A stretch of 64,000 nt of DNA from Ochrovirga pacifica (GTDB taxonomy: Bacteria > Bacteroidota > Bacteroidia > Flavobacteriales > Flavobacteriaceae). The notes below the pieces were generated by a model, which was not told the DNA's origin, did not search any database, and worked only from the letters and a program-made list of their open reading frames with translations. This document shows, piece after piece, positions 9,953 through 27,399 of this stretch (positions are counted from its first letter, which is position 1; each line of letters opens with the position of its first letter). The stretch covers positions 62,001 to 126,000 of the forward strand of contig NZ_AFPK01000063.1 of NCBI RefSeq assembly GCF_000220525.1. Reading direction: 5' to 3'. The translations under genes and the position numbers were made by a program.

Positions 9953-10002
9953 AATAAAATATTAATTTAATAAAATGTTTATCTTCTTTTAATTAACCGA
10001 AA

Positions 10003-10032
10003 CAAATATATAACAATTATTGAAACATCCAA
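10003..10032 (-). promoter_or_regulatory. Bacteroidota-type promoter of glnA
   Basis: On the minus strand a TTG (10032-10030) is followed after 19 bases by TATATTTG (10010-10003), matching the -33 TTG / -7 TAnnTTTG pattern. It is about 50 bases upstream of the glnA start, leaving a short AT-rich leader. Confidence 0.55.
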
Positions 10033-10199
10033 CGAGCAAACTACGTATTTTTACGTAGCAGAGACAATTTTATATTAAAGATGATTTAACACATTCTTAA
10101 AACTGTTTTTTATCATACAAATAGGTTGTTCAAAAAATATGTGGTCGCTAAAATTCAAATACCTAAATTTGCAATTCCATAAAAACACGAAATTATATT

Positions 10200-11387
10200 A
10201 TGAGCTCGGAAGTAAGTAAAAGATACAGCCAAAGAGGAGTTTCGGCATCTAAAGAAGATGTACACAATGCTATTAAAAATGTAGACAAAGGATTATTTCC
10301 CAAAGCATTTTGCAAAATTGTACCTGATTATTTAACACAGGACGAAGATTATTGTTTGATTATGCATGCAGATGGTGCTGGTACCAAATCTTCTTTAGCT
10401 TATATGTATTGGAAAGAAACAGGGGATGCTTCTGTATGGAAAGGAATTGCTCAGGATGCTTTAATTATGAATATTGATGACCTACTTTGTGTAGGTGCAA
10501 CAGACAATATTTTATTATCTTCTACCATTGGTCGTAACAAAAATTTGATTCCTGGAGAAGTAATTTCTGAAATTATTAATGGAACCGAAGAGTTGTTGGC
10601 CGAGTTAAAAGATTTTGGAGTAACCATCCATTCTACCGGTGGAGAAACCGCTGATGTAGGAGATTTGGTAAGAACCATTATTGTAGACTCTACCGTTACT
10701 GCCAGAATGAAACGAAGTGATGTAGTAGACAATGCCAATATTAAAGAAGGAGATGTAATTGTAGGATTGTCTTCTTATGGACAAGCTTCTTACGAAAGTA
10801 TGTATAATGGAGGAATGGGATCTAATGGATTGACATCGGCTAGACACGATGTTTTTCACAAGTATTTAGCCGAAAAATATCCTGAAAGTTTTGATGCTGC
10901 TGTGCCTAGTGAACTGGTTTATTCTGGAAACACCAAACTTACAGACTCTGTAAAAGATGCTCCTATTGATGCAGGTAAATTGGTATTATCACCTACAAGA
11001 ACATATGCTCCCATTATTAAAGAAATACTTTCAAAATATACTCCTGAACAAATTCATGGGATGGTACATTGTTCTGGAGGAGCACAAACAAAAATTTTAC
11101 ACTTTGTAGAAAATTTACATATTGTAAAAGACAATCTATTTCCAATACCTCCTTTATTTCAATTGATTCAGGAAAATTCTGGAACTGATTGGAAAGAAAT
11201 GTATCAAGTTTTTAACATGGGACACCGAATGGAATTGTATGTTCCTAAAGAAATTGCGGATGATATTATTAAAATTTCATCATCCTTTAACGTTGATGCA
11301 CAAATTATTGGACGTGTTGAAACCGCTAAAGAAGCAGGAAAAAAATCATTAACTATAGAAAGTCCTTACGGAACATTTAATTATTAA
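10200..11387 (+). CDS. purM: Phosphoribosylformylglycinamidine cyclo-ligase (AIR synthase)
   Basis: 395 residues, somewhat longer than the enterobacterial enzyme but usual for Bacteroidota. The AIRS N-domain shows MHADGAGTKSSLAYMYW and the ATP-binding GVTIHSTGGETADVGD; the C-domain shows GMVHCSGGAQTKILHF. It makes aminoimidazole ribonucleotide in purine synthesis. A TAAATTTG element at 10164-10171 fits a -7 box, but I do not find a convincing TTG partner at the right distance. The gene ends at a strong hairpin. Confidence 0.93.
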   Translation: MSSEVSKRYSQRGVSASKEDVHNAIKNVDKGLFPKAFCKIVPDYLTQDEDYCLIMHADGAGTKSSLAYMYWKETGDASVWKGIAQDALIMNIDDLLCVGATDNILLSSTIGRNKNLIPGEVISEIINGTEELLAELKDFGVTIHSTGGETADVGDLVRTIIVDSTVTARMKRSDVVDNANIKEGDVIVGLSSYGQASYESMYNGGMGSNGLTSARHDVFHKYLAEKYPESFDAAVPSELVYSGNTKLTDSVKDAPIDAGKLVLSPTRTYAPIIKEILSKYTPEQIHGMVHCSGGAQTKILHFVENLHIVKDNLFPIPPLFQLIQENSGTDWKEMYQVFNMGHRMELYVPKEIADDIIKISSSFNVDAQIIGRVETAKEAGKKSLTIESPYGTFNY

Positions 11388-11414
11388 TTTATTGCTCTAT
11401 TAGGCAATTTATAC

Positions 11415-11450
11415 AAAACGCTCTTCTTTAAATTAAGAAGAGCGTTTTTG
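11415..11450 (+). terminator. Rho-independent terminator after purM
   Basis: A 14-bp perfect stem (AAAACGCTCTTCTT / AAGAAGAGCGTTTT) with a 6-base loop, continuing into a T-rich tail. Confidence 0.88.
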
Positions 11451-11527
11451 TTTGATTTCTTATCAAAAGAAATCTTTTTTTCTAGGTACAATTTCTTTAT
11501 TATTGTATTGTTAAGATAAAAAAGAGC

Positions 11528-12103
11528 ATGGACGATTTTCTTATAGGAATTGGAAAAAGAATCAAATCAATTAGAAAGAAAAAAGGAATTACAATTAGCA
11601 ACCTAGCTAGTACTGCTGGTGTTAGTAACGGACTGATTTCTAGAATAGAAAATGGAAGAACCATTCCATCACTACCTGTTTTATTAGAGTTGATAAGTGC
11701 TTTAGAGGTGGATGCAAGTAATTTTTTTGAAGGAGTAGAGAAAAAAACTGGAGCAAAATACATTCTTATAAAAAAAGAAGAAAAACAATTGCTTGAAAAG
11801 GAAATAGAAGCCGAAGGTTTTACTTATTTTCAAATCTTTGGAAAAAGCCTAAATGCTGTTGGTTTTGAAGCTGTTGTACTAACTATTTCTCCTAATTCTA
11901 AAAGAGAAAAAGTAATAACCGATGCATGGGAGTTTAAATATGTTTTATCTGGATCCTGTGTGTATTTAATAGACAACGAAGAAATTGAAGTAAACCAAGG
12001 AGACTCTCTATACTTTAATGGTAGATTGCCTCATGTTCCTATCAATAAAACAAGCACAGACTGCACCATGCTTGTCTTGTATTTTTACTCTGAAAATAAT
12101 TAG
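11528..12103 (+). CDS. XRE-family regulator with C-terminal cupin domain
   Basis: 191 residues. A lambda-repressor-like helix-turn-helix lies at about 8-62 (GITISNLASTAGVSNGLISR), and a cupin fold at about 115-190 (AWEFKYVLSGSCVYLIDNEE, GDSLYFNGRLPHVPIN). Such XRE-cupin proteins sense small ligands and control nearby catabolic genes. It lies tail-to-tail with the class III PLP enzyme, 9 bases apart, and is the only regulator beside the phosphonate-type locus, so it is the obvious candidate controller of that operon; this is inferred from position only. Confidence 0.85.
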   Translation: MDDFLIGIGKRIKSIRKKKGITISNLASTAGVSNGLISRIENGRTIPSLPVLLELISALEVDASNFFEGVEKKTGAKYILIKKEEKQLLEKEIEAEGFTYFQIFGKSLNAVGFEAVVLTISPNSKREKVITDAWEFKYVLSGSCVYLIDNEEIEVNQGDSLYFNGRLPHVPINKTSTDCTMLVLYFYSENN

Positions 12104-12112
12104 AAAAAAGCT

Positions 12113-13438
12113 CTATAGAAGCTGTAGTCCAGATTTTAAAGTTTGTAATGTATAATCAATTTCATCTTTGGTAATAATTAAAGATGGTTTTAGATTTAAT
12201 ATATTTCCTTGAATCAACTTAAAAGAAACCCCTCTTTCTAAGCAATAGTTCATTAACTGATGTGCTTTTTGCACAGCTCTTTTTTTAGTGTGTTTACTTT
12301 CTACCAAATCTACTCCTAGGTTTAAACCTAAACCTGTTATTGTCCCAACACACTCAAACTCTTCTTGCAACAAGCTTAATTCTTGTTTAAAATAACTTCC
12401 TAAAACTTGTGTTTTTGCTACAAGGTCTTGTTCTTCTATACAATCAATAACAGCTTTAGAAACAGCAGCACATAATGGATTTTTTTCGTGTGTATAATGA
12501 CCAATAGATTTATGAGAAATTACATCTAAGTCTTTTCTTCCTATAATACCTGCATAAGGTACTACTCCACCCCCAAAACCTTTACCTACGACCAATAGAT
12601 CTGGAGTTACAAAATGCTCTGAAGCAAACATTTTTCCTGTTCTTCCAAAAGCGGTATAGATTTCATCAAAAATTAAAAGAATATCATTCTTACTACATAT
12701 TTCTTTTACTCTTTGCCAATAATACTTTGTAGGAACAGTTGAATTGTAAAAAATAGGTTCTGTAATTAATGCTGCAATTTCTGTATTATTTTCTACTTGT
12801 AGTTCCAATTGTCTTAAATATTCATCGTCTATTTGTTGCGAATCTGTCCATCCCCAAGGATTTCTGTAATAATCTGGTAATTCTAGATGTATGGCTCCTG
12901 GCATCATAGGGCCTAAACCTTCTTTAAAATGTTTGTCTGCCCCAATTGAGATTGCCTGAAAACCAGCACCGTGAAAAGTGCCATAATACGATAGTGTTTT
13001 CCATTTTCCTGTGGTGTGTTTTGCCAACATAACAGCCATTTCAACAGCTTGAGAACCTCCTGGACAAAACAGTACTTTTTCCAATCCTTGCGGACTTATA
13101 TTGATAAGTTTTTCTGCAAGTGCAACTGCGGGTTCATTGGTAAATCGTCTTGGAGAAAATGACAATTGATTTTGAAATTGTTTTTGAATGGCTTCATAAA
13201 TTTTGGGATTGTTGTACCCAATGGTATGCACTCCGTTTCCGTGAAAATCTAAATATTTAGTACCATTCTCATCGTACAAATAAGCCCCTTCTGCTTTGCT
13301 AACCACATTAAAAACTGGAGTTGATAGAGATTGATGGTAGAAACTAGCAGCATCTCTGTCTAATAAATTTTGAGCTTGGCTAGACACCGATACTTGATTT
13401 CCTAAATTCCTTATATTTTCTCCTTGATTTACACTCAT
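12113..13438 (-). CDS. Class III PLP enzyme of phosphonate locus (PbfA-like lyase or aminotransferase)
   Basis: 441 residues with a complete class III aminotransferase fold: FHGNGVHTIGYNNP near residue 65, CPGGSQAVEMAVML (PLP phosphate site), FDEIYTAFGRTGKMF (PLP-pyridine Asp) and VGKGFGGGVVPYAG (Schiff-base Lys). By context it belongs to the set encoded beside PhnX-like hydrolases and FAD oxidoreductases. One such relative, PbfA, is known to be an ammonia-lyase on 1-hydroxy-2-aminoethylphosphonate rather than a transaminase. Either reaction would yield phosphonoacetaldehyde, the substrate for the next gene's family. Sequence alone does not separate the two. It is the last gene of the operon, 1 base after the HAD gene. 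Confidence 0.75.
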   Translation of the reverse strand: MSVNQGENIRNLGNQVSVSSQAQNLLDRDAASFYHQSLSTPVFNVVSKAEGAYLYDENGTKYLDFHGNGVHTIGYNNPKIYEAIQKQFQNQLSFSPRRFTNEPAVALAEKLINISPQGLEKVLFCPGGSQAVEMAVMLAKHTTGKWKTLSYYGTFHGAGFQAISIGADKHFKEGLGPMMPGAIHLELPDYYRNPWGWTDSQQIDDEYLRQLELQVENNTEIAALITEPIFYNSTVPTKYYWQRVKEICSKNDILLIFDEIYTAFGRTGKMFASEHFVTPDLLVVGKGFGGGVVPYAGIIGRKDLDVISHKSIGHYTHEKNPLCAAVSKAVIDCIEEQDLVAKTQVLGSYFKQELSLLQEEFECVGTITGLGLNLGVDLVESKHTKKRAVQKAHQLMNYCLERGVSFKLIQGNILNLKPSLIITKDEIDYTLQTLKSGLQLL

Positions 13439-13439
13439 C

Positions 13440-14123
13440 TTACTTCAAATTATTAATTACTGTATCTAATGCTGCCAAAGAATCTAAAATATAGTCTGGG
13501 TTTGCAGTTTCTAATTGCTCTTTGGTTTGTGCTCCCGATAAAACCCCCACGGTTACGCCACAATTTGCATTCTTTCCTTCTTGTATATCTACTGCAGAAT
13601 CTCCTGCTTTTAGCACCCAAGAAGGGTTTTCTATTCCAAATAATTCCATCGCTTTGTAAATCATATCAGGCTTTGGCCTTCCATTTTTCACATCATCAGC
13701 CGTTATTAATGCATCGTAGTGCTGTTCTTTTTTCCAGTTTAATTTTTCTAACAATTGATTGGCAACTAAACTATTGTATCCTGTGTTTAATACTAGTTTA
13801 ATATTTTTCGTTTTCAATTTTGTAAACATTGCTTCTACTCCATCAATTGCTTGTACATCCAAATTTTGGTAAGCCAAATCCAATGCCTTTTTAAACTCTT
13901 GAAAAATAATTTCAGAATTCAATTGGTCAGACAGCTTTAAAAATGACAAAACATCTTTAATTGCTTGATGTTTTTCTTTTCCTGCTCCTAATTGTAAAAC
14001 CAATTCTAGATTTACCTCTGTGGTATATTTATAAATCGTGTTGTATAGCGTTTTGTAAACCACATTTTTCTCATCAATTGTGGTTCCTGCCATATCAAAA
14101 ACCACCATTTTTATTTTTGTCAT
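13440..14123 (-). CDS. HAD hydrolase, phosphonoacetaldehyde hydrolase (PhnX)-like
   Basis: 227 residues. HAD motif I is VVFDMAGTTIDE (nucleophile Asp10, acid Asp at the PhnX-type MAGTT), motif II LNTGYNS, motif IV KAGDSAVDIQEGKNANCG. The cap segment GAGKEKHQ has a Lys three residues before a His, which from memory resembles the Schiff-base lysine region of PhnX; this needs an alignment. Phosphonatase-like HAD enzymes cleave the C-P bond of phosphonoacetaldehyde to acetaldehyde and phosphate. PhnX itself is about 270 residues, so this is a shorter cousin. It is 9 bases after the FAD gene. Confidence 0.75.
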   Translation of the reverse strand: MTKIKMVVFDMAGTTIDEKNVVYKTLYNTIYKYTTEVNLELVLQLGAGKEKHQAIKDVLSFLKLSDQLNSEIIFQEFKKALDLAYQNLDVQAIDGVEAMFTKLKTKNIKLVLNTGYNSLVANQLLEKLNWKKEQHYDALITADDVKNGRPKPDMIYKAMELFGIENPSWVLKAGDSAVDIQEGKNANCGVTVGVLSGAQTKEQLETANPDYILDSLAALDTVINNLK

Positions 14124-14132
14124 CTGTTCTTA

Positions 14133-15293
14133 TTATCTGTTAATTATGTTGTTTAAACTCATTTCTGAAAAAGCTGGACTTCCTGTCATTCCTTTACCTC
14201 CAATTCCTGTTACTATGTGAATGTTTTTTTCTATTTGCTGCTCAAAAACATCCTGTTCTTTACATTGCGAATACATCCCTACCCATCTTTTATCTATCTG
14301 ATAATTAGGCAAATTCATTATTTTCTTTGATTCTTCTATCATAAAATGGTCTAAGTCTTCATTTCTATCAAACCCTATTAAGTCTGCCTTAACTGCATCT
14401 TGATATTCATGAGAGTCTCCCAAAATCACAGAACCATCATTTACTTGTTTAAACAAAATATGCACCCCATATTGATTGTGGTATGCTTCTTTATTTTCCT
14501 TATCTTTTATACTTTGAAAAGAAGGACATTCATAAAAAGATTCATACCTTCTTATAGTCCAACCAGTTAAAACAGAAGGTGCTAGTGTATAGTTTTTTTG
14601 AGGTTTGGTACGTAACATTTGTAATTTAGACACCACCAAATCACTTTGATTAAATAATTCTGGAAACAAAATTTTAAAATCACTTCCGTTACAAACAATT
14701 GCTTTTGATGCTATAAACTTCTGATTGTTAGCTGTTGTTGCAAGTACTTCATTTCCTTTGTCTTCCAAATCTTTTACTGTGTTGTTAGAAAAAAATTCTA
14801 ATTGATATTTTTCAATCAATAACTTGCGAACTCTATGAATCATTAAGCTAGGATCTACATTCATTTCTTGCGGAAAGAACAAAGCTCCTTTTGCGTATTC
14901 CTTCTTTAAACCAGCACAGCATGCTATACTCTGTGCCTGTGTTAACAAATGAGATTCGTAATTATTACTTTTGTTTATTTGTGAAAGTTCTTCTATTAAC
15001 TGTAGTTCCTCGGTATCAGAAGCTATATAAATACTACCAGACTGCCTAATGGTAATGTCTGTTAGCTGACTGATTTCTTGATAAATTTCTAAACTTTTTC
15101 TTCCAATATTTTGCCACTTTAAGTCCATTCCCGAGGGTACTATTTGTCCAAAGTTTCGAACAGTAGCCCCTTGCGGAACCGTATTCTTTTCTAGAAGTAC
15201 TACTTTTAATCCTTTTTTTAAAGCATGATACGCATGAAACGTTCCTAAAATCCCTCCTCCTACAATAATTAGGTCGTATTTTTTATGATTCAT
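14133..15293 (-). CDS. FAD-dependent oxidoreductase, phosphonate-associated (TIGR03364 / PbfC type)
   Basis: 386 residues of the DAO fold: FAD-binding YDLIIVGGGILGTFHAYH at the N-terminus and GIGGKGMTGSPAFSE at the C-terminus. This clade is repeatedly found with PhnX-like HAD proteins, and characterised relatives oxidise 2-aminoethylphosphonate and N-methylated forms to phosphonoacetaldehyde. Family assignment is from memory of these motifs and from context. Its start overlaps the MFS gene end by 11 bases, so the two are translationally coupled. Confidence 0.75.
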   Translation of the reverse strand: MNHKKYDLIIVGGGILGTFHAYHALKKGLKVVLLEKNTVPQGATVRNFGQIVPSGMDLKWQNIGRKSLEIYQEISQLTDITIRQSGSIYIASDTEELQLIEELSQINKSNNYESHLLTQAQSIACCAGLKKEYAKGALFFPQEMNVDPSLMIHRVRKLLIEKYQLEFFSNNTVKDLEDKGNEVLATTANNQKFIASKAIVCNGSDFKILFPELFNQSDLVVSKLQMLRTKPQKNYTLAPSVLTGWTIRRYESFYECPSFQSIKDKENKEAYHNQYGVHILFKQVNDGSVILGDSHEYQDAVKADLIGFDRNEDLDHFMIEESKKIMNLPNYQIDKRWVGMYSQCKEQDVFEQQIEKNIHIVTGIGGKGMTGSPAFSEMSLNNIINR

Positions 15294-16557
15294 AAATGAT
15301 GTGTTTTGATTGAGCTGTTATTTTTTGTTTGTTCTTAAAAAAGAAAAATGAGAGCATTGCTACTACAATGGCTAAAACTGAAACCATCAGAATTAGATAA
15401 GAAAAGAAGTGTATGTACGAGCTGTTTTTCTCTCCGAAATTTTTGTAAAGCAAAATGCAAACACTACCTAAATAACCAAAAGCATCGGAGATATAAATTA
15501 AAAAGCCTACATTTCCTTGAATTTTAAAGGTGGCAATCATTCTATCGTAAAACAATCCCTGAAATGGTATGTAGCAAGCATACATTCCAAAACCAGTACT
15601 CATCATCCACCATACAGCATTGATTGTATTTGTATAAAAAAGAAAAGTGGCTAAGGCAATTAAAACTCCTCCAAAAAACAATACCCAATGGTAAATAGCA
15701 AAAGCTTTTTTGTTCTTTTTAATAGAACCTATCACTATCATTAATAACAGAACAGAAATTGCAATAGGTATTTCCGAAAAAGAATAAACAGTAATACTAT
15801 CTACATAACCTAAAGAATCCCAAATTTCTCGTGCAAAATTGTCTCTAAAGTCTCTAACCCCAGTGACAAAAACATAAAAAATAATTATTAATGTTAATGG
15901 AATTGCAAATTCTCTATACAGCAAAAAACGTTCATGCTTGTTTAACGGAGCTCTTTTAGACCTTAACTGCTCATCTTCTAAAGAAGGTTTTGGCAACTGC
16001 TCTAACAAATAAGCAAAAATTAATAAAGGAAATACAAATAAAGCTCCCACTATAAAGGGCATCCAAAAAGCATTGAAACCCCAAGTATCCATTACAAATT
16101 TACCTACAGATTTTACTACTCCTGAAGACACAATAAAGCTAGAGCATAGAATAACCCCTAAGATTTCGGTTGTTTTTCTTCCTTCTAAATATGAGAATAC
16201 AATTCCCCAAATCATTCCCAATGGCAAACCGTTTAAAAATAAACATAGAATATTGTACGGTGCTGGTACCAAGGCAAAGCCTAATAAGGCAAATTCTGCA
16301 AAAGTTATAAAACTTATTAAGTACAGAAAGCGTTTAGAGTTGGGCATTTCGGCAATCCATTTAATTCCTAAAAACTTAGAAAGTGTATACCCTATTACTT
16401 GAGCAATAACCAATAGAATTTTATAGTCAATTCCCCAAAATTGTATATCGGAAAAGGTGGCTACTGTAAAAGGTTTTCGGAAAGCATACATACAGAAATA
16501 GGCACCAAAAGCTGCTATTGCTGCTTGTAATATAAATTTTAAACGATTTATTTTCAT
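15283..16557 (-). CDS. MFS transporter (DUF5690-like), possible organophosphate or phosphonate carrier
   Basis: 424 residues with about 12 hydrophobic membrane segments. The first one carries YFCMYAFRKPFTV, reminiscent of the YxxRK motif of the organophosphate:phosphate antiporter group (GlpT/UhpT), and a RDFRDNFAREIW motif sits mid-protein. It fits an inner-membrane importer for the product released by the periplasmic phosphatases upstream. Substrate is inferred from context; position between phosphatases and cytoplasmic C-P enzymes supports it. Confidence 0.65.
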   Translation of the reverse strand: MKINRLKFILQAAIAAFGAYFCMYAFRKPFTVATFSDIQFWGIDYKILLVIAQVIGYTLSKFLGIKWIAEMPNSKRFLYLISFITFAEFALLGFALVPAPYNILCLFLNGLPLGMIWGIVFSYLEGRKTTEILGVILCSSFIVSSGVVKSVGKFVMDTWGFNAFWMPFIVGALFVFPLLIFAYLLEQLPKPSLEDEQLRSKRAPLNKHERFLLYREFAIPLTLIIIFYVFVTGVRDFRDNFAREIWDSLGYVDSITVYSFSEIPIAISVLLLMIVIGSIKKNKKAFAIYHWVLFFGGVLIALATFLFYTNTINAVWWMMSTGFGMYACYIPFQGLFYDRMIATFKIQGNVGFLIYISDAFGYLGSVCILLYKNFGEKNSSYIHFFSYLILMVSVLAIVVAMLSFFFFKNKQKITAQSKHIIYES

Positions 16558-16647
16558 TATAAAAAAAGGAAATAAGTAGCAGCTTTCTAAACTACGAAAG
16601 CTGCTTTTCTACTAAAACAAACTCAAAATTCAAATAAATGAAACTTA

Positions 16648-18237
16648 TTATTTTGTGGTGATAAAAGAAGCTGTATCAGACCAGTCACTCCAGTTTAAAA
16701 ACTGATCTCTGTATCTAACTCTCCAGTAATAAGTAGTGTTTGGCTCTAATCTTTCAAAAGATTCATCGGTTAAATCATCAAACTTTTGACGGTTTTCGTC
16801 ATAATACCAATTTTCAAACTGTTTCCAACTATTACTTGCTTCTTTAAAGGTTTTGTCTTTAGATAGTTGCCAATGTGAAGCTGCATGAAAAGCTCCCATT
16901 CGTTCTCCTTTAAACAAACTTGCTTTTAAAGTGGTTCCTATATAATTTACCATCTTGTTTACAGGAGACAACACTTGGGGTTTTTCTGGTTTTTTAGTGT
17001 TTTTAAAGACTGTAATCTCATCAGAAACCTCGTTGTTTTTTACGCCATCTTCTACGTTTCCTCTACTTATTCTTTTTAATGTTAATTTAGGATCTTCTGG
17101 ATTAGGATCTACCGTAACCATTACAAAACCATAAGCATCTTGAGTAACCGTAAATTCGTTATAATCTCTTCCTTGGTACTCTCCCCAGTTATCAATAGCC
17201 CCACCTGCAGAAGCTACATTTACCCATAAATGTTTGTGATCTCTAGATTGCCCTCTAGAATATCCATGCGTATGCCCAAAGAAATGCAAACTTGGTTTTC
17301 CTGATGTTTCTGTAAATTCTTCTAACATTTTCACCACTTTTCCTGTAGAATCTTCTTCACCTGGGATCCATAATTCCGATTTGTGTGGATGGTGTAGTTG
17401 AGCAAACACAAAATCAATGTCCTTATTCTCTGCAGTTTCTTTAAGTACTGTTGCTAACCATTGGTATTGTTCTTTTAAATCTCTGTACCCATGATTGGAA
17501 TTCAACCCAATAATTCTAGTATTTCCATAATCTTTATACCACCAGTGTTCGTGATAAGCAGGAGTTCCATTTTCTGGCAAAGAAAAATATTTAAAATAAA
17601 AATTAGAATTGCGTTCATGATTTCCTGGCACTGGGTATACTGGAACCTGCGAAAATAAATCTGCAGCTGGAGAAAAAAAATGATCTTTCCATTGATGGTA
17701 TTTTGCTCCATTTTCTACCAAATCTCCAGGAACCATTACCAAAGCTAAATTTTCGGGCAAACTTCCGTTAAACTCTTTTTCTAAATAAGCAATTACTCCC
17801 TGATTTACAATTTCAGAAAATTTATCAGGTTGTCTGTAATCGTACTGCATATCACTCATAGCAACCAAATTAAAGGTAGTTGCTTCACTAGAAAAAGGAG
17901 GGGTTTTAAATTCATGAATATCAGAAGTCAATTCTCCTGTTTTTACACGGTAATAATACTTGGTAAACTTTTTTAATCCAGTTAATTTTACTTCGTGCAA
18001 TCTTGCTGCTCCATAAGTTACTTTAGAACTGCTACCTGTAGTTGCATGTTTTAGTTTTTTGCGTGTTCCCCACTCTACCACACTCTCTTCCCCATCCGTA
18101 GTTTCCCACATAATTTTTATAGAGGTAGGTTCTGCATCTTGCAAGTATGGTTTTACCAAAAAATCTATTTTTTTCTGTGCAAACATACATTCTACAATTC
18201 CGATAAGTAACAACCCTAAGATTCTATTATTTTTCAT
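16648..18237 (-). CDS. Secreted purple-acid-type metallophosphoesterase with flanking FN3 domains
   Basis: 529 residues from ATG at 18237; a start 78 bases upstream would overlap the preceding gene and bury the signal peptide (MKNNRILGLLLIG...FAQ), so I chose the shorter form. Domains: signal peptide, FN3-like N-domain (25-110), metallophosphatase core with MSDMQYD, PGDLVENG, PGNHERN, LHHPHKS and FGHTHGYSRG as metal ligands in order, and a C-terminal FN3-like domain ending WSDWSDTASF. Likely periplasmic or surface phosphomonoesterase or diesterase in the substrate-processing step. Confidence 0.82.
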   Translation of the reverse strand: MKNNRILGLLLIGIVECMFAQKKIDFLVKPYLQDAEPTSIKIMWETTDGEESVVEWGTRKKLKHATTGSSSKVTYGAARLHEVKLTGLKKFTKYYYRVKTGELTSDIHEFKTPPFSSEATTFNLVAMSDMQYDYRQPDKFSEIVNQGVIAYLEKEFNGSLPENLALVMVPGDLVENGAKYHQWKDHFFSPAADLFSQVPVYPVPGNHERNSNFYFKYFSLPENGTPAYHEHWWYKDYGNTRIIGLNSNHGYRDLKEQYQWLATVLKETAENKDIDFVFAQLHHPHKSELWIPGEEDSTGKVVKMLEEFTETSGKPSLHFFGHTHGYSRGQSRDHKHLWVNVASAGGAIDNWGEYQGRDYNEFTVTQDAYGFVMVTVDPNPEDPKLTLKRISRGNVEDGVKNNEVSDEITVFKNTKKPEKPQVLSPVNKMVNYIGTTLKASLFKGERMGAFHAASHWQLSKDKTFKEASNSWKQFENWYYDENRQKFDDLTDESFERLEPNTTYYWRVRYRDQFLNWSDWSDTASFITTK

Positions 18238-18259
18238 TTTTAATTTCTTTTTGATGATT

Positions 18260-19525
18260 TTATCTTGAGATATACGGACCAAATTCAGACAAAACTTCTC
18301 TTGTTTCAGAAGCATCGTTTAGCACGTATATTTTGTAATGACTCCCTCCTTTAGCAACTCTTACCACTACATGTCCTTTTTGGCTTTTGTACTGATCCAA
18401 TTGACCTCCAATTACTTCTTTTGCTCCTCTAAGCATTACAGTAGAAAAAAGATCTCTTTCTCCTGGGTACAAAGCTTTAGAAGTAATTCTTCTTAACACT
18501 TCTTCTCCTGGATGATCTGCTGTCCAGTTTTGTTGAATCCATACCCTTGGACGAAGAGTACGAACGTAATAAGGGTTTTGTGAATCTCTATTTCCATGAT
18601 GATTGAGCGTGGCTACATCAACAGCACCTATAACAGGAGCTACATGAGACTCTACTGCATCTAAATCCATTTGTCCCAAACCATCAATTCCAGAAATATC
18701 TCCTCCAGTAAAGTAGTTAAATGGACCATAATCTATACGAATACAGTTGCTCAATGCATTTTCATTAGGAAAACTTCCTTTGGCAAACAATCGATAAGTT
18801 TTATTTTGTACTCCAGTCCAGATGACACCATTAGAAGCAATGTTTTGTATAGAAAAATCAGGATACGAATCAGGTTTTCTTGTTAGCACTATTTGCTTTT
18901 TTTCTCCTACATTCAACGTCTCATGTTTCATTCCTTTTTTTTCTTGATGCTCGATAAATTTCCAATATTCTTTTAGGGTAGGTATTAATTGGTATTTATC
19001 TTTTGCATATCGATCTAAAGATTGAATGCTTGAATCTTTTAAGTCTATTGGATCTGTATAACCTCTATCTATCATTTTTTTAATGGATAACATAGTTCCT
19101 ACTTCTGTAATTCCGGTTAATTGATATCCTCCTTTAGCAATGGTTCTTAATGTATCTACTTCGCCAAAATGATCGTCATGGTAATGTGTTATCAACGCAT
19201 AATCTAACTTTGTTTTTTGTTGATTGGGTGCAAATTGTTGTATGTAATCCACAATCCATTGTGGAGCGGTTTTGCTTGCATTTGGCATTAGTTTGGCATT
19301 TCTAGGGGAATGTGTTCTTGCATGTGTCTCCGACATATCTCCTGCATCAATCAACATTGTAGTACCATCTGGCATTACAACAAAGGCTGCATCTCCTCTA
19401 CCTGTATGAATATGGTGTATGTCTAAAAAACCTTCTTGCCAAACAGGAAGTTCAAGTTTTTGAGCATTCACCAAAAAACTAGTACAAAACAATACTATAA
19501 AGACTTCTAATTTTTTATACTGCAT
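18260..19525 (-). CDS. Secreted MBL-fold metallohydrolase
   Basis: 421 residues. Signal peptide ends ...FLVNAQ, and the metallo-beta-lactamase core has ALITHYHDDHFGEVD (zinc-binding HxHxDH) and GRGDAAFVVMPDGTTMLIDAGD, like ComEC/Rec2-type hydrolases. A late LNHHGN supplies another metal ligand. Many relatives are phosphodiesterases. It lies 8 bases after the alkaline-phosphatase-fold gene and 22 bases before the metallophosphatase, making three successive exported phosphoesterase-type proteins. Confidence 0.8.
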   Translation of the reverse strand: MQYKKLEVFIVLFCTSFLVNAQKLELPVWQEGFLDIHHIHTGRGDAAFVVMPDGTTMLIDAGDMSETHARTHSPRNAKLMPNASKTAPQWIVDYIQQFAPNQQKTKLDYALITHYHDDHFGEVDTLRTIAKGGYQLTGITEVGTMLSIKKMIDRGYTDPIDLKDSSIQSLDRYAKDKYQLIPTLKEYWKFIEHQEKKGMKHETLNVGEKKQIVLTRKPDSYPDFSIQNIASNGVIWTGVQNKTYRLFAKGSFPNENALSNCIRIDYGPFNYFTGGDISGIDGLGQMDLDAVESHVAPVIGAVDVATLNHHGNRDSQNPYYVRTLRPRVWIQQNWTADHPGEEVLRRITSKALYPGERDLFSTVMLRGAKEVIGGQLDQYKSQKGHVVVRVAKGGSHYKIYVLNDASETREVLSEFGPYISR

Positions 19526-19533
19526 GGTTAAAC

Positions 19534-21201
19534 TTATTTGGTTAAATGCAATTTATCTATAGGAATAATTTGTTTTAGTACTTCATTTCCTTTGTATTTT
19601 ACATCTAAATGGTAACCACCACCTCCATTAAAAAATTCAACTTTAATCAAGTGTTTTCCTTTGGTTAATTCTATAGAGCCACTTCTTTCCTGCACTCCAT
19701 GATCCCCATCATTATCTACAATCAAACGATTGTTTACGTATAACTTACTTCCATCGTCACTATTGGTAAAAAAATGATACTTTCCTGGCTTATCAATCTG
19801 CAAATAACTTTGATACACAATCGCTACTTGTTCCGATTTGATTCCTTCTTTTATCACATTCTTGTGAGAAAAATTAAGAGTAGCACCTTCTTTTATTACG
19901 CTTAAAGAATTAAAGTCAGGTAATTTTTCTAACTTTTGGCCGTAATAAATTTGATATTTTACAGGGTTTTCTTTGTCTTTAGGTGCTATTCTAAAATTCC
20001 CTAAAGTTAACTTACTTTTTTGCATGCCTTTTTCAAAAACAGCTGCTTTTATCAAACTTGTTTGTTTAATGTAAAACGTGTCTTTATATACGGTGCTATT
20101 TTCAAATGAGATTTCCTTTTGATTAATTACAAAACGTACTTCTCCTTTATTGCTAGGATTTTGCATTACTACAGCCACAGAATCTGCTTTGTAAACTCCT
20201 CCTGATGCTTCAAAATATCCCATATCAGGAAGTATTTTTGGAGCAACAGTTTGTTCTACACGTTGATAACGTAGTGTAGGTTTTGGGTTTCCAATAAAAG
20301 CTCCTTTTACAGGTCTTCCAATCCAAGCTTGTGGAGTTTCTAAACCAAAAGCATAAGCAACGGTAGCAGCATTGTCGTATTGATAAACGGTTTCTTCTAT
20401 AGCATATCCTTTTTTAATTCCGGCTCCAAACATCACAAATGGAATTTCAACTTCCGCCAAACTTTCTCCTCCATGCCCGTAGCCCAAACCTCCATGATCT
20501 GCCGAAACAATAAACAAGGTTTTGTTATACATTCCATTTTTTTTGGTAGCTTCTATTACCTTACTTATCAAAAGATCTGCTTTTTCTACAGATTTATAGT
20601 ATTCTGAACTTCCATGTCCCATGCTATGTCCTGCATGATCTACATGGTCTAAATGGACAAATGTAAAATCAGGTTGGTGCTTTTCTAAGTAAGAAATAAC
20701 ATCTTTTATAGTTCCATCTTCGTGGTCACCATCAATATCAAAATCAACTTCTTCTTTATCAAACAAACGTCCAAAACCATCCCAATCGTAAATAGCTCCT
20801 ATATGACTTTTAGGCTTTTGATCTCTTAATAGAGTAAAAATTGTTGGAAACCTTCCGTTTTTTGTTGCTACCATAGTAGGCAATACATGGTCTGTTATTT
20901 CCCAGCCGTTAGAAGTAACTCCGTGTTGTTCGGTATCAGCCCCCATTATCATGCTCGCCCAATTGGAACTTGAACTAGACGGAAGAACACTTCTTGCGTA
21001 CATAGTTGAAGCCCCATTGGCTATCATAGTGTCTAATGTTGGTGTATTTGCTTTTTGAATACCGTTTGGACTCATTCCATCAACTCCAATAACAATTACA
21101 TGATCTATTCCGTTAGGAATGTTATTGCTTTCTGTAGATTGGGTACAAGACCACAGGGATGTTGCCACCCCTATGATTGTACCTAACATTATTTTTTTCA
21201 T
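19534..21201 (-). CDS. Alkaline-phosphatase-fold lipoprotein with PA14 domain
   Basis: 555 residues from ATG at 21201; a start 24 bases upstream exists but overlaps susD. The lipobox TSLWSC places it as a lipoprotein. Residues about 25-330 are a nucleotide pyrophosphatase/phosphodiesterase-like domain: VIGVDGMSPNG, PSSSSSNWASMIMG (nucleophile region), HLDHVDHAGH and SADHGGLGYGHGG as metal ligands. Residues about 430-555 form a PA14 domain (YHFFTNSDDGSKLYVNNRL), a carbohydrate-binding module. The PA14 tail suggests the phosphate or phosphonate ester is attached to a glycan. It follows susD by 8 bases. Confidence 0.85.
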   Translation of the reverse strand: MKKIMLGTIIGVATSLWSCTQSTESNNIPNGIDHVIVIGVDGMSPNGIQKANTPTLDTMIANGASTMYARSVLPSSSSSNWASMIMGADTEQHGVTSNGWEITDHVLPTMVATKNGRFPTIFTLLRDQKPKSHIGAIYDWDGFGRLFDKEEVDFDIDGDHEDGTIKDVISYLEKHQPDFTFVHLDHVDHAGHSMGHGSSEYYKSVEKADLLISKVIEATKKNGMYNKTLFIVSADHGGLGYGHGGESLAEVEIPFVMFGAGIKKGYAIEETVYQYDNAATVAYAFGLETPQAWIGRPVKGAFIGNPKPTLRYQRVEQTVAPKILPDMGYFEASGGVYKADSVAVVMQNPSNKGEVRFVINQKEISFENSTVYKDTFYIKQTSLIKAAVFEKGMQKSKLTLGNFRIAPKDKENPVKYQIYYGQKLEKLPDFNSLSVIKEGATLNFSHKNVIKEGIKSEQVAIVYQSYLQIDKPGKYHFFTNSDDGSKLYVNNRLIVDNDGDHGVQERSGSIELTKGKHLIKVEFFNGGGGYHLDVKYKGNEVLKQIIPIDKLHLTK

Positions 21202-21209
21202 ATGTTTAA

Positions 21210-22664
21210 TTAATTTTCCCACCAAACTTTGGTTGTAATTTCATCTTCTCCTATTCTACTTACCGCTTGGTTATAGTTTTCAGCATTTAAAGCTTGTTCT
21301 TTACTTGGGTATTCAAACCTACTAGGATAGGTTGCATAAAAAGCATCAGGACCTGGAGCAATGGTATTCGGAAATCCTGTTCTTTTAAATTCAATAAACC
21401 CTTGAAAGTCTGTGTAAAAAAGAGAGATGTATTTTTGATTGGCAATTATTTCTAATGTATTATCGAAAGCCACTTCTGCTCTTGTTAGATAATCCACAGG
21501 CATGTCTATACCCCAATAATTAAAGTTAGAAGTAATTCCTTCTTGATACAATGTAGCTGCATCTGTAGCTATCCAACCTCTTTGTGCTGCTTCGGCTAAA
21601 ATAAATTTCACTTCACCATGCAACATCAATCTAGCTTGATTTGCATTGGGTTGTAAATAAAAATAATCTAACCTAAACTTTGATAAAAAAGCATCTCCTC
21701 CTTTGTATTCATAAGCAGGTCCATCTACAATTCCGTTTTGCATTCCCTCATAAACAGGAGTTCCTTTTTCAACAGAGTTGGCCGTAGGATCTGCAAAAAA
21801 CTCTAACCTAGGATCGTCTAATCTTTTTAACAAGCCTACAAAGTTTTCAGAAATACGATATTCATTATAAGATCCTACTCTATAAACTGATTCTTCTGTT
21901 ACAGGATGTGCATCAGGATTTGCATTTAAAAAGGTTAAGGCTGCATTGTCATCATTAGATTCCATTACTGGATATTGTGATGGATTGTTGTATATAGCTG
22001 CAATTTCAGAAGCTGCTTTAGAAGCATTAACTTCACTTAACCTTAACGCCAATCGCAATCTTAGAGAGTTTGCAAATTTTCTCCATTTTTGCAAATCTCC
22101 ATCAAACAATAAATCTCCTCTAATTGCTAAAGAACTTTCTGACAATGTAATATTGGCTTCTTCCAACAACTGTAACATACCATTGTAAATTTCTTCTTGC
22201 GTATCGTATACAGGAGTTCCATTGCCTTCTGCTGCTTGGTTTACTTCGCTAAAAGGAATATCTCCCCAGATATCGGTTAATAAGCTAAACAACCACGCTT
22301 GCATTACTTTAGAAACCCCTTGGTAGCTTGTATTTTCTTCTGCTATGGCAATTTTTTCTAATTCTTTGGCATCTCTAATAGCCAAAAAGTAAGTATTCCA
22401 TGTTCCTGACTGGTCGCCCCAATCAAACAAATCAAAAGAAGTAAATACAATTCTTGCTCCGTATTGCCCCATCAAATTACCTTCGCTCCACGCAGCACTT
22501 ACAGAGGTTCTAATTGCATTTCTTTGCAAATTGGTTAATAATAATTCTGGATTTTTATTGATGTTTAAGGCAACATCAGGATTGTCGTTTGATACATCAA
22601 ACTCTTCACAACTGGTACACATCAGTCCAATTGCCAATAAAGTTAAAAAGGCTATTTTTTTCAT
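21210..22664 (-). CDS. SusD/RagB-family outer-membrane substrate-binding lipoprotein
   Basis: 484 residues. Lipobox ...MCTSC then SusD-like TPR scaffold; QYGARIVFTSFDLFDWG, LFSLLTDIWGDIPFSEV and the C-terminal RFEYPSKEQALNAENYNQAV are family hallmarks. It sits as a lid on the TonB-dependent channel encoded 20 bases upstream and captures the ligand at the cell surface. The ligand cannot be read from sequence; the neighbours point to a phosphorylated or phosphonylated molecule. Confidence 0.92.
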   Translation of the reverse strand: MKKIAFLTLLAIGLMCTSCEEFDVSNDNPDVALNINKNPELLLTNLQRNAIRTSVSAAWSEGNLMGQYGARIVFTSFDLFDWGDQSGTWNTYFLAIRDAKELEKIAIAEENTSYQGVSKVMQAWLFSLLTDIWGDIPFSEVNQAAEGNGTPVYDTQEEIYNGMLQLLEEANITLSESSLAIRGDLLFDGDLQKWRKFANSLRLRLALRLSEVNASKAASEIAAIYNNPSQYPVMESNDDNAALTFLNANPDAHPVTEESVYRVGSYNEYRISENFVGLLKRLDDPRLEFFADPTANSVEKGTPVYEGMQNGIVDGPAYEYKGGDAFLSKFRLDYFYLQPNANQARLMLHGEVKFILAEAAQRGWIATDAATLYQEGITSNFNYWGIDMPVDYLTRAEVAFDNTLEIIANQKYISLFYTDFQGFIEFKRTGFPNTIAPGPDAFYATYPSRFEYPSKEQALNAENYNQAVSRIGEDEITTKVWWEN

Positions 22665-22684
22665 TTTAATCTTCTTTTGGTGGG

Positions 22685-25600
22685 TTAAAATTTAGCATCT
22701 AATGCAAATCCGAAACTTCTTGTTGTAGGTACCGTAGCATTTTCTACACCAGGTACGTATTTACCACTTCCAAAGGATAACAATTCTGGATCTCCGTGGT
22801 TAAAGTCTTTTGCCCACAACCATAAATTGTTTCCGATTACTGAGAACGTTAAACTGCTTAAGCTTAAGTCTTTGGTCCATTTGGATGGTAAATTGTATGT
22901 CAACCTTGCTTCTCTAAGCTTTACAAACGTTGCATCATACATCCCTTCGGTGTCGTTGCTTCTTCTGTATCTGTTGTTGTGGTATGCGTTTGCAGGTACA
23001 ATTTTAGTATTAGGAACATAGGTTCCGTCTTCTAACTGCATTACACCAGCTCCAATTACTCCATCAGTTTTAGTAACTCCAGCATCGTCTACATAACTTA
23101 ATCCTGAGTCTGTAATTCCATCGTGTGCTCCTCCAAATTCTGGAGCTCTACCCCATAAAGTTTCTTTAATATTTCCTGATGTTGCTGCAATTAACCTTGT
23201 TCTAGAAAGCATATCTCCACCTTGTCTCCAATCAAACAAAAAGCTTAATTTAAAATTTTTGTACTGTATAGCGTTGTTCCATCCTAAAGTAAAATCTGGA
23301 TTAAAGTTTCCTATCTTTCTAAGGGTATTGTCTTGTTGTACCAAACCTTCGTTAAAGATTACTTCTCCGTAGTATGGACTTTCTTTATCTTCTACTTTTT
23401 TAAGACCTGTACCCCACATATCACCCAAAGAACCTCCTTTTTCTGCAACTAAAGTAATTCCATTTCCTCCGTATACGTATTGATCTACTCCGTCTACTAA
23501 TTCTAAAATTTCATTTCTGTTTAATCCAAAATTAAAGGTGGTATTCCACTTTAAATCTTCTGTTTTGTATGGTGTAATGTCTAGTAAAATTTCTAATCCT
23601 TGGTTTCTAATTTTACCAGCGTTTATAATTCTAGAGGTTTTTCCAGAAGTTGATGGCAATTCAATTCCTAAAATTTGGTTTTTAGACACGGTATTGTAGT
23701 AGGTTGCATCCAAAGAAATTCTGTTAGATAAGAATCTTAAATCTGTTCCTAATTCTACCGAAGTTTGTATTTCTGGTTTTAAGTCTGCATTGGCCAATTG
23801 ATTTGATGGACTAGCTGTAGGGTTTGTTCCTACTGGAGCTCCTAAAATATAAGGATCTGCTAATCTAAACGGATTGGTATCACTACCTACTTGTGCCCAT
23901 CCTGCTCTAACCTTAGCAAAAGAAAGTACATCATTAGTGTTGGCTTGTTTTAAAATAGCCGCCAAAGATGCCGAAGGATAAAAGTAAGAGTTGTTTTGAG
24001 ATGGCAATGTAGAAGACCAATCATTTCTTGCAGTAATATCTAAGAAATAAGTATCATCCCATTCCATATGAGCAAACCCATACAGAGAGTTGATTTGTTT
24101 TTCTGGACGATCTGAACGTTGTACCAAAGCTCCATCAGCATTGTTAAAAGAATAGATTCCTGGTAACAATAACTTGTTGGCCATTAAAGAATTGAAATGA
24201 TTTCTTTGTATCATTTGGTTCCCCCCAAAGTTGAAGCTTATCCCTAATTTTTCTTGAAACGTTTTGTTGTAAGTTAACAAAAAGTCCATATTGGTTTCTT
24301 CAAAATTGATTTTATCTTCTCTATATTGTCCGTTTGGAAAACGTTGAGTAGAATAGGCTCTTTTCATAAAACGATACTCCGAGAAAAAATCTCTACCTCC
24401 ACGTAACATTAATTTTAAATCTTTTGTAAAATCGTACGTAGCCGATATGTTTCCAATAATTCTATCCTTAGACAAACCATTCGTGTTTTCGTACATGGTA
24501 AAGTATGGGTTGTCGTGATAGTTGTAATTGTAGTTGTACTGCTGAAACCCTTCTAAACCAGGCTGCCAGTAATCTTTTAAACTTCTTACATCAACATTTT
24601 GTCCCCACCAAGTAAACAAATACATCACTGATTCTGTTCCATATCCATTTACGTGACGGTTGTCAGAATCCGTTTTGATATAGTTTACTTTTGAAGATAT
24701 TTTTAACTTATCTCCTATTTGATAATCTCCTGATAAAGACACTGTATTTCTTCGCAGATCTGTATTTGGTAAAATACCTTTGTTGTCTAAATTAGTGTAT
24801 CCTACTCGGTAATTTCCTTTGTCATTAGAACCGTAAAACGAAATGCTGTTGGTAGCTGTAGTTCCAGTTTCTAAAAAGTTTTCTAAAGGGTTTCCTGCAT
24901 ATACAAAAGGGGTTGGAGTAATGGTTCCTCTTCTGTTTAAGTCTACTCCTGAGGGTCCTAAAATAAAATCCAATCCATGTACATCTCCTCCTCTTAAACC
25001 ATTGCTAGTAGGAGAATCGTGTTGTGCAATCAATCGTCCATCCATACGCGGTCCCCAAGATTCATCTACGCCATCATAAGTTCCGTTTCCATATCCATCA
25101 ACAAAAGAAAAATCAAAGTTTTTACCCTGACCGTATACATTTTGATATTCTGGAACTTTAAGAGCGTTTTCGAAAGTAAGTTTAGAGCTCACAGAAACAC
25201 CAAACTTTTGTCCTTTTCCTGATTTGGTAGTAATGATAATTGCTCCGTTGGCAGCTCTAGAACCATACAGTGCTGTTGCGTTTGCTCCTTTTAACACCGA
25301 TACAGACTCTACATCTTCTGGATTGATTTCTGCCCCTCCGTTACCAAAATCTATGTTCATATTGCTTGCACCTCCTAAGGTATTGGTTCTTGTATCAGTG
25401 GTATTGTTAATAGGAATACCATCAACTACAAATAACGGTTGATTGTCTCCTGCCATAGAAGAATACCCTCTTATTACCACCGATGAAGACTGCCCCGCTC
25501 CTGTACCATTGGTTACCACCTGAACCCCTGCAGTTCTACCTGATAGGGTACTTACAAAGTTAGTGCTGGTAGATTGAGACAACTCTTCTCCTTCTACTTT

Positions 25601-25993
25601 TTGAAAAGCATATCCTAAAGATTTCTCATCTCTAGCAATGTTTAAAGCTGTTACCACAACTTCATCTAAAGACTCTAAATTTGCTTTTAAAGCAATGGTA
25701 CCTAAGTCTTTTATTTCACCTCCAGCTAGTTTTAACGTCATTGATTTTGTTTCGAAACCAATAGAAGAAAATTCTAACTGAATACTTCCTGATGGTACTT
25801 TTTCTAATAGAAAATTTCCATCAAAATTAGTCATAGTACCTTTTGCAGTACCTTTTACTAACACATTTACTCCAATTAAAGGAGAAGATGTAGCATCGAC
25901 CACCACACCTTTTACTCCGCTTCTTTGAGCAAATGCATTTCCGTAAAATAGAATACCAATTAAAATAACTAGTACTTTGCAATTTGTTTTCAT
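22685..25993 (-). CDS. SusC/RagA-family TonB-linked outer-membrane channel
   Basis: 1102 residues. Signal peptide (...NAFAQ), a carboxypeptidase-regulatory-like domain (about 25-105), plug with FVVDGIPINNTTDTRTN and the SusC signature VLKGANATALYGSRAANGAI, then a long beta-barrel ending in ...FGFALDAKF with aromatic last residue. Imports large ligands using TonB energy. First gene of the nine-gene run; 720 bases of non-coding DNA lie upstream and must contain its promoter. Confidence 0.95.
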   Translation of the reverse strand: MKTNCKVLVILIGILFYGNAFAQRSGVKGVVVDATSSPLIGVNVLVKGTAKGTMTNFDGNFLLEKVPSGSIQLEFSSIGFETKSMTLKLAGGEIKDLGTIALKANLESLDEVVVTALNIARDEKSLGYAFQKVEGEELSQSTSTNFVSTLSGRTAGVQVVTNGTGAGQSSSVVIRGYSSMAGDNQPLFVVDGIPINNTTDTRTNTLGGASNMNIDFGNGGAEINPEDVESVSVLKGANATALYGSRAANGAIIITTKSGKGQKFGVSVSSKLTFENALKVPEYQNVYGQGKNFDFSFVDGYGNGTYDGVDESWGPRMDGRLIAQHDSPTSNGLRGGDVHGLDFILGPSGVDLNRRGTITPTPFVYAGNPLENFLETGTTATNSISFYGSNDKGNYRVGYTNLDNKGILPNTDLRRNTVSLSGDYQIGDKLKISSKVNYIKTDSDNRHVNGYGTESVMYLFTWWGQNVDVRSLKDYWQPGLEGFQQYNYNYNYHDNPYFTMYENTNGLSKDRIIGNISATYDFTKDLKLMLRGGRDFFSEYRFMKRAYSTQRFPNGQYREDKINFEETNMDFLLTYNKTFQEKLGISFNFGGNQMIQRNHFNSLMANKLLLPGIYSFNNADGALVQRSDRPEKQINSLYGFAHMEWDDTYFLDITARNDWSSTLPSQNNSYFYPSASLAAILKQANTNDVLSFAKVRAGWAQVGSDTNPFRLADPYILGAPVGTNPTASPSNQLANADLKPEIQTSVELGTDLRFLSNRISLDATYYNTVSKNQILGIELPSTSGKTSRIINAGKIRNQGLEILLDITPYKTEDLKWNTTFNFGLNRNEILELVDGVDQYVYGGNGITLVAEKGGSLGDMWGTGLKKVEDKESPYYGEVIFNEGLVQQDNTLRKIGNFNPDFTLGWNNAIQYKNFKLSFLFDWRQGGDMLSRTRLIAATSGNIKETLWGRAPEFGGAHDGITDSGLSYVDDAGVTKTDGVIGAGVMQLEDGTYVPNTKIVPANAYHNNRYRRSNDTEGMYDATFVKLREARLTYNLPSKWTKDLSLSSLTFSVIGNNLWLWAKDFNHGDPELLSFGSGKYVPGVENATVPTTRSFGFALDAKF

Positions 25994-27088: not shown

Positions 27089-27223
27089 CCCCTTTGTTTT
27101 AGGAATAATGTTAGAATGGAGTTAAGACTTTTTAGTTTTAGCTTCATTCTTTTTTGTTTTAAATCTTTATTTGCTATTCATTAAAGCAAAAGCTATTGTA
27201 AATCAACACGTTAAAAACAAGAC

Positions 27224-27262
27224 ACCGAAATCGTTTTCGGCTAAAACGAAAACGATTTCGGT
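27224..27262. repeat. Perfect 16-bp inverted repeat with self-similar arms
   Basis: Arm ACCGAAATCGTTTTCG (27224-27239), 7-base loop, then its exact complement (27247-27262). No T-tract follows, so it is a poor terminator. Each arm is itself nearly palindromic (CGAAATCGTTTTCG against its own complement differs at two positions), like a pair of LacI/GalR-type operators. Confidence 0.7.
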
Positions 27263-27399
27263 ATTAAACATCTCTTTTTCAATAAATTAACACATTAATT
27301 TTGGAGTAAAATAAGCAAAAAGTTACTTTCTAAAAATATTATTTAAGTCTATTACTTAAAGCAACCCTACCCTTAAATTACATTTACCTCTATGCTATG

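Follow-up and report, generated by a model that had tools for sequence, protein, structure and literature searches.

A SusCD-linked locus for probable aminophosphonate utilisation in a flavobacterial genome, with a DUF5690 protein as putative carrier

Dissolved marine phosphonate is mostly bound in high-molecular-weight matter, and the phosphonate uptake systems known to us serve free small phosphonates. Could a bacterium take up bound phosphonate directly through a SusC-SusD pair and carry it on to phosphate within a single locus? The question is raised by positions 11528-25993 of a 64,000-nucleotide stretch (the window) of contig NZ_AFPK01000063.1 from Ochrovirga pacifica, whose 3.4-Mb genome is Flavobacteriaceae-like; related loci likewise come from Flavobacteriaceae. 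Nine minus-strand genes (12113-25993) encode SusC, SusD, three exported hydrolases, a carrier of the major facilitator superfamily (MFS) fold and three cytoplasmic enzymes, the last acting by prediction on 2-aminoethylphosphonate (AEP) and its (R)-1-hydroxy derivative (R-HAEP). With a probability of roughly two in three, the locus forms a full system for aminophosphonate utilisation in which bound aminophosphonate is taken up and de-esterified, and AEP or HAEP is then converted to phosphate. Its features are as follows (scores in bits, against the cut-off of the model).

11528..12103, plus strand: XRE (helix-turn-helix)-cupin regulator (PF01381 and PF07883 above cut-off)
12113..13438, minus strand: class III pyridoxal-phosphate (PLP) enzyme of the PbfA type, predicted R-HAEP ammonia-lyase (NF049939, 581.6 against 525)
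13440..14123, minus strand: PhnX-like HAD hydrolase, proposed phosphonoacetaldehyde hydrolase (TIGR03351, 222.3 against 218.9)
14133..15293, minus strand: flavin adenine dinucleotide (FAD)-dependent aminophosphonate oxidase, PbfD type (TIGR03364, 397.3 against 285.1)
15283..16557, minus strand: DUF5690 carrier of MFS fold, proposed inner-membrane aminophosphonate importer (PF18943, 538.1 against 25)
16578..16605: hairpin with a 10-bp stem in the sole sizeable gap of the run (from the sequence)
16648..18237 (open frame to 18315), minus strand: exported calcineurin-like metallophosphoesterase with a purple-acid-phosphatase N domain (PF00149, PF16656; signal peptide by eye)
18260..19525, minus strand: exported metallo-beta-lactamase (MBL)-fold hydrolase (PF00753)
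19534..21201 (open frame to 21225), minus strand: lipoprotein type I phosphodiesterase of the alkaline phosphatase superfamily with a PA14 domain (PF01663, PF07691)
21210..22664, minus strand: SusD-like lipoprotein (PF12771, 309.6)
22685..25993, minus strand: SusC-like TonB-dependent transporter (TIGR04056, 654.8 against 368)

As proposed, SusC-SusD would import an aminophosphonate-bearing molecule (a phosphonylated glycan, a phosphonolipid head group or an oligomer) across the outer membrane, and the exported hydrolases, chiefly the PA14 phosphodiesterase and the MBL enzyme, would cleave the phosphonate ester to release AEP, N-methyl-AEP or R-HAEP. The DUF5690 carrier would move these three compounds over the inner membrane. 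Judged by their families, the PbfD-type oxidase would convert AEP and N-methyl-AEP, and PbfA R-HAEP, to phosphonoacetaldehyde, from which the PhnX-like HAD hydrolase would release phosphate and acetaldehyde. Expression is probably tied to the substrate by the XRE-cupin protein, sensing either the substrate or a product of the pathway.

Are the cytoplasmic enzymes those of aminophosphonate catabolism? The PbfA-type protein scores above the cut-off of the curated equivalog model NF049939, and its PLP lysine K286 and active-site D258 are invariant in the family alignment. It is divergent relative to the PbfA proteins of comparable loci, which score 634-727 bits on this model, and falls into a divergent subgroup together with members from loci L232 and L233. 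L233 holds two PbfA paralogues (1614-2957 and 14454-15803) of different subgroups, the second being of the divergent type of the window and perhaps differing in substrate or stereochemistry. PbfA converts R-HAEP to phosphonoacetaldehyde (Zangelmi et al. 2021, PMC8154272). The FAD oxidase exceeds the cut-off of TIGR03364, the family to which PbfD1 belongs; PbfD enzymes oxidise N-methyl-AEP, and PbfD2 also AEP, giving phosphonoacetaldehyde, and pbfD is frequently clustered with phnX without phnW (Zangelmi et al. 2023, PMC10590968). The HAD protein passes TIGR03351 narrowly, and each of 86 relatives keeps its catalytic D10 and Lys51, which correspond to D12 and the Schiff-base K53 in the PhnX of B. 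cereus. The curated models thus support the assignment of all three proteins as aminophosphonate enzymes, as the earlier note on this DNA had predicted, and aminophosphonate catabolism at the locus is considered highly probable. In genome-wide family searches, no PhnW, canonical PhnX, PhnE or PhnJ reached cut-off (the searches did not extend to PhnA and PhnY). The locus is therefore the only visible route of the genome, one that needs no PhnW, with the HAD protein as the sole visible carbon-phosphorus (C-P) hydrolase of this type and the DUF5690 protein as the likely importer. That no importer subunit PhnE was found also supports the idea of the earlier note that phosphonate use would proceed here without the usual ABC importer.

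Which protein would bring the aminophosphonates into the cytoplasm? The earlier note had recognised an organophosphate-like MFS carrier but overlooked its family, DUF5690. The fold was recovered in a structure model (pLDDT 90), for which the best solved folds are those of SLC37A4/G6PT in the organophosphate:Pi (OPA) family (Z 33.4), with other MFS proteins close behind (Z 31). No solved structure was matched when the DUF5690 profile was used for a sequence search, and the comparison with GlpT gave no BLASTP match and an hhalign probability of 1%. R27-K28 in helix 1 align to R45-K46 of GlpT, and the helix-7 Arg is displaced by four residues, about one turn; the proposal that DUF5690 has the three phosphate-binding residues of GlpT was dropped, as only the helix-1 Arg-Lys pair aligns. 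Among 296 Bacteroidota genomes, TIGR03364 is found above cut-off in 22, DUF5690 in 29 and both in 20. With the genome of the window excluded, DUF5690 occurs in 28 of all 295 genomes and in 19 of the 21 that have TIGR03364 (Fisher p=3.5e-21, relatedness uncorrected).

The neighbours of DUF5690 vary with the pathway. It adjoins TIGR03364 and HAD genes in some loci and a Phn-HD oxygenase (TIGR03276 above cut-off) in others, and stands beside PhnW, PhnY and PhnA in L184, beside PhnW and PbfA in L189, and with PhnW, a PhnX-type HAD, PbfA and the same phosphodiesterase as in the window in L128; in Rhodanobacter, its neighbours are the C-P-lyase genes PhnF, PhnI, PhnJ and PhnN. DUF5690 is thus likely a new aminophosphonate carrier family and, being otherwise uncharacterised, perhaps the most novel part of the locus. 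Literature searches, with subscription papers and preprints outside their scope, found no paper on DUF5690. The C-P-lyase arrangement was seen in both Rhodanobacter and Dyella (L130, L132, L135, L137, L140, L143 and L144, ~9800-17000), where DUF5690 may replace the PhnCDE importer. In Chitinophaga (L131, L133 and L139), XRE-cupin, SusC, SusD and DUF5690 genes occur with none of the tested catabolic genes. An alcohol dehydrogenase that falls slightly short of TIGR03366, a model associated with phosphonate catabolism, lies near DUF5690 in L050 and L193, and a similar one, by sequence clustering only, in L049 and L051.

What would the surface proteins deliver? Residues D49, S85, D196, H200, D243, H244 and H251 of the phosphodiesterase, assigned as catalytic by comparison with NPP, are invariant across 18 loci, and its fold is closest to NPP/ENPP; ENPP7, which releases phosphocholine, ranks fifth. 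The HxHDDH, GGD and NHHG motifs of the MBL enzyme are likewise invariant. Its nearest solved structures are those of the pneumococcal phosphorylcholine esterase Pce/CbpE, a weak match over two short stretches (26-30 bits, E 2e-6 to 2e-5), and ComEC-type MBL domains match as well. Pce/CbpE removes a zwitterionic phosphoester from a glycan; given the strength of the match, a shared function is a lead only. For the metallophosphoesterase, the PDB search returned purple acid phosphatase (E=1.7e-5).

The whole exported cassette recurs in L233, where SusC, SusD, phosphodiesterase, MBL enzyme and metallophosphatase (47, 41, 56, 65 and 67% identity to the window) lie between the two PbfA genes, the second of which adjoins a GH92 alpha-mannosidase gene (L233:15812-18082). 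L234 brings together SusCD, the phosphodiesterase, PbfA, PhnA, PhnY and PhnW. In L229 (1810-9312), where a similar phosphodiesterase has SusCD and a pair of GH92 genes as neighbours, no aminophosphonate gene is in view, hence the esterase need not be specific to phosphonates. The GH92 neighbours and the cassettes of L233 and L229 suggest that one class of substrates consists of glycans that bear phosph(on)ate and are perhaps rich in mannose. The esterases and the GH92 neighbours in relatives point towards a large substrate containing phosphonate, which is what we infer, and uptake of bound phosphonate by SusCD is rated as plausible, somewhat above even odds. A separate cluster on another contig of the same genome (C16; L243, L244) has three GH92 genes near an apparent SusCD pair, a GH99-like gene and a sulfatase, these last three recognised by eye.

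Is the association of the two halves peculiar to this genome? Eighty named loci were picked by DUF5690 similarity, and the counts describe that sample. A clear DUF5690 gene was found by local test in 78 of them; FAD and HAD genes are also present in 57 of the 78, and SusC and SusD in 24 of these 57. All 24 carry an esterase of the alkaline phosphatase superfamily, either window-like (17 loci) or of a shorter 360-residue type (7 loci) of which a representative matches PF01663. They span at least 10 genera or families, including Muricauda/Flagellimonas, Zobellia, Maribacter, Leeuwenhoekiella and Galbibacter as well as Sediminicola, Euzebyella, Fulvivirga, Flavisolibacter and Cyclobacteriaceae. 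The recurrence of the same gene types in so many genera argues that the set is not due to chance. The earlier note proposed to check the co-occurrence of the nine genes across Bacteroidota, where the set of SusCD, esterase, carrier and catabolic genes does recur. An XRE-cupin orthologue adjoins the module in 58 of the 78 loci. In Leeuwenhoekiella, as in the window, SusCD precedes the carrier, whereas in Muricauda and Zobellia it follows the regulator, and the SusD proteins form several groups at 45% identity. As SusCD can flank the module at one end or the other and its SusD belongs to several lineages, the pairing arose or was re-shuffled more than once.

The recurrence bears directly on the reading that SusCD and the esterases have no functional link to the catabolic genes and owe their position to chance or to shared inheritance. 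Bacteroidota commonly have SusCD pairs, and in many loci of Chryseobacterium, Flavobacterium and Tenacibaculum the module comes with a different TonB receptor (TIGR01782) and no SusD, the phosphodiesterase there bearing a laminin-G domain. However, the pairing in 24 of 57 loci, in various orders and with several SusD lineages, and the presence in most loci without SusCD of another TonB receptor and a phosphodiesterase-domain protein make an unlinked origin very improbable. Scarcely better placed is the reading that the cytoplasmic enzymes use non-phosphonates, such as other amines or ethanolamine phosphate. Class III PLP enzymes and FAD amine oxidases form broad superfamilies, both TIGR03351 and TIGR03364 have the status of 'hypothetical equivalog' models, the PbfA of the window is divergent and its HAD lacks His56. 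Nevertheless, three different curated aminophosphonate-associated models are exceeded together, and relatives hold a Phn-HD oxygenase, PhnW, PhnA or PhnY at the same place, so that this reading is also judged improbable.

A more serious rival is a general organic-phosphorus locus of PUS type. The SusCD pair and the three hydrolases would then act on phosphodiesters, for example those of lipid head groups, nucleic acids, teichoic acids or phosphomannans, and free aminophosphonates would either arise as a by-product or be handled separately by the second half. Described PusCD loci do serve phosphodiesters, the Flavobacterium PUSI and PUSII targeting both phosphodiesters and phosphomonoesters under phosphate-starvation induction (Lidbury et al. 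2021, PMC8115612). The gene set of L229 fits this rival, and the hairpin at 16578-16605 divides the run in two. Against it, pathway variants that are unrelated (L128, L067, L234) again combine phosphonate enzymes with SusCD and this type of esterase, and in L233 PbfA adjoins the uptake cassette although the FAD, HAD and carrier module is absent. On balance, we regard it as unlikely, if clearly ahead of the other two.

Several observations weigh against the aminophosphonate utilisation system itself. Free AEP is small and expected to pass porins, so SusCD is not required for AEP as such. The HAD protein misses the canonical PhnX model TIGR01422 (106.7 against 220 bits) and for this reason is not classed as canonical PhnX, an identity that was considered and rejected. 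At the position of PhnX His56 it has Ala, as do 79 of 86 relatives; a first pairwise alignment had suggested that the His was kept, which the family alignment ruled out. The phosphodiesterase also occurs in relatives (L229-L231) with no recognised aminophosphonate gene nearby, and about ten DUF5690 loci (including L073 and L118) show no phosphonate gene in view, hence the family may be broader.

Is the locus one transcription unit? The gene content and coordinates given in the earlier note were right by curated models and Pfam. Its single-strand run of 11528-25993 holds for 12113-25993, but the regulator gene at 11528-12103 lies on the opposite strand, convergent to the nine genes. The small gaps it described are mostly of 1-25 bp, but the only true short overlap is that of 11 bp between the carrier and FAD genes; the metallophosphatase/MBL and phosphodiesterase/SusD overlaps disappear with internal ATG starts at ~18237 and ~21201, just before the signal peptides (by eye). 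A larger gap of ~90 bp between the metallophosphatase and carrier genes contains the 10-bp hairpin, hence two transcripts are possible, one for uptake and processing and the other for import and catabolism. Hairpin-type sites across the region occur at a count near chance level. An 18-bp near-perfect hairpin (CCGAAATCGTTTTCG) lies at 27222-27264 of the window, upstream of the SusC gene and within a long intergenic region. A shared operator upstream of xre/susC was also considered; its candidate, a GTAAA-N5-TTTAC palindrome in 8 loci, is probably due to shared descent and is absent from the window.

How new is such a system? The earlier note took SusCD-driven phosphonate use to be new, and no paper detailing a SusCD-phosphonate locus was found by the literature search, again with subscription papers and preprints outside its scope. 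However, the idea is not wholly new, because one sentence in Lidbury et al. (PMC8115612) places PusCD complexes beside phosphonate-degrading enzymes, and AepP-type carriers are reported from Bacteroidetes (PMC8316502). The PUS loci share with the window a SusCD-type pair and exported phosphoesterases, whereas the window adds the named full aminophosphonate route, the DUF5690 carrier and the XRE-cupin regulator. As in the PbfD2-PhnX pathway (PMC10590968), an FAD oxidase and a HAD hydrolase would take AEP and N-methyl-AEP to phosphate without PhnW, but the hydrolase is of the TIGR03351 type and PbfA, outer-membrane uptake and esterases are added. The PbfA accessory pathway (PMC8154272) similarly channels R-HAEP to phosphonoacetaldehyde hydrolysis by a PLP ammonia-lyase; the window differs in having no PhnW and a PbfA of the divergent subgroup. 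AepP is a GlpT-like 2AEP permease with ~28% identity to GlpT, and a Bacteroidetes strain is among its reported sources (Murphy et al. 2021, PMC8316502); the Flavobacteriaceae carrier beside PhnWYA in L234, at 27% identity to GlpT, resembles it. Like AepP, the DUF5690 protein is a single MFS-type carrier adjoining AEP catabolic genes, but it has no detectable GlpT sequence match, and any resemblance to the OPA family would be one of fold. The points of interest are hence DUF5690 as a putative carrier and the predicted bound-phosphonate substrate.

More broadly, the loci could represent a dedicated and widespread system of Bacteroidota, a 'phosphonate PUL', that leads polymer- or lipid-bound aminophosphonates from the outer membrane to the cytoplasm, with DUF5690 as a new carrier family serving at least three different C-P cleavage chemistries, a generalisation held tentatively and at a little under even odds. 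Since some strains with such loci can be cultured (among them Zobellia, Maribacter, Leeuwenhoekiella blandensis MED217, Flagellimonas and Galbibacter), the proposal is testable now. If it is true, DUF5690 would gain a function, and the SusCD-coupled route would be a mechanism by which abundant polymer degraders use bound phosphonate directly.

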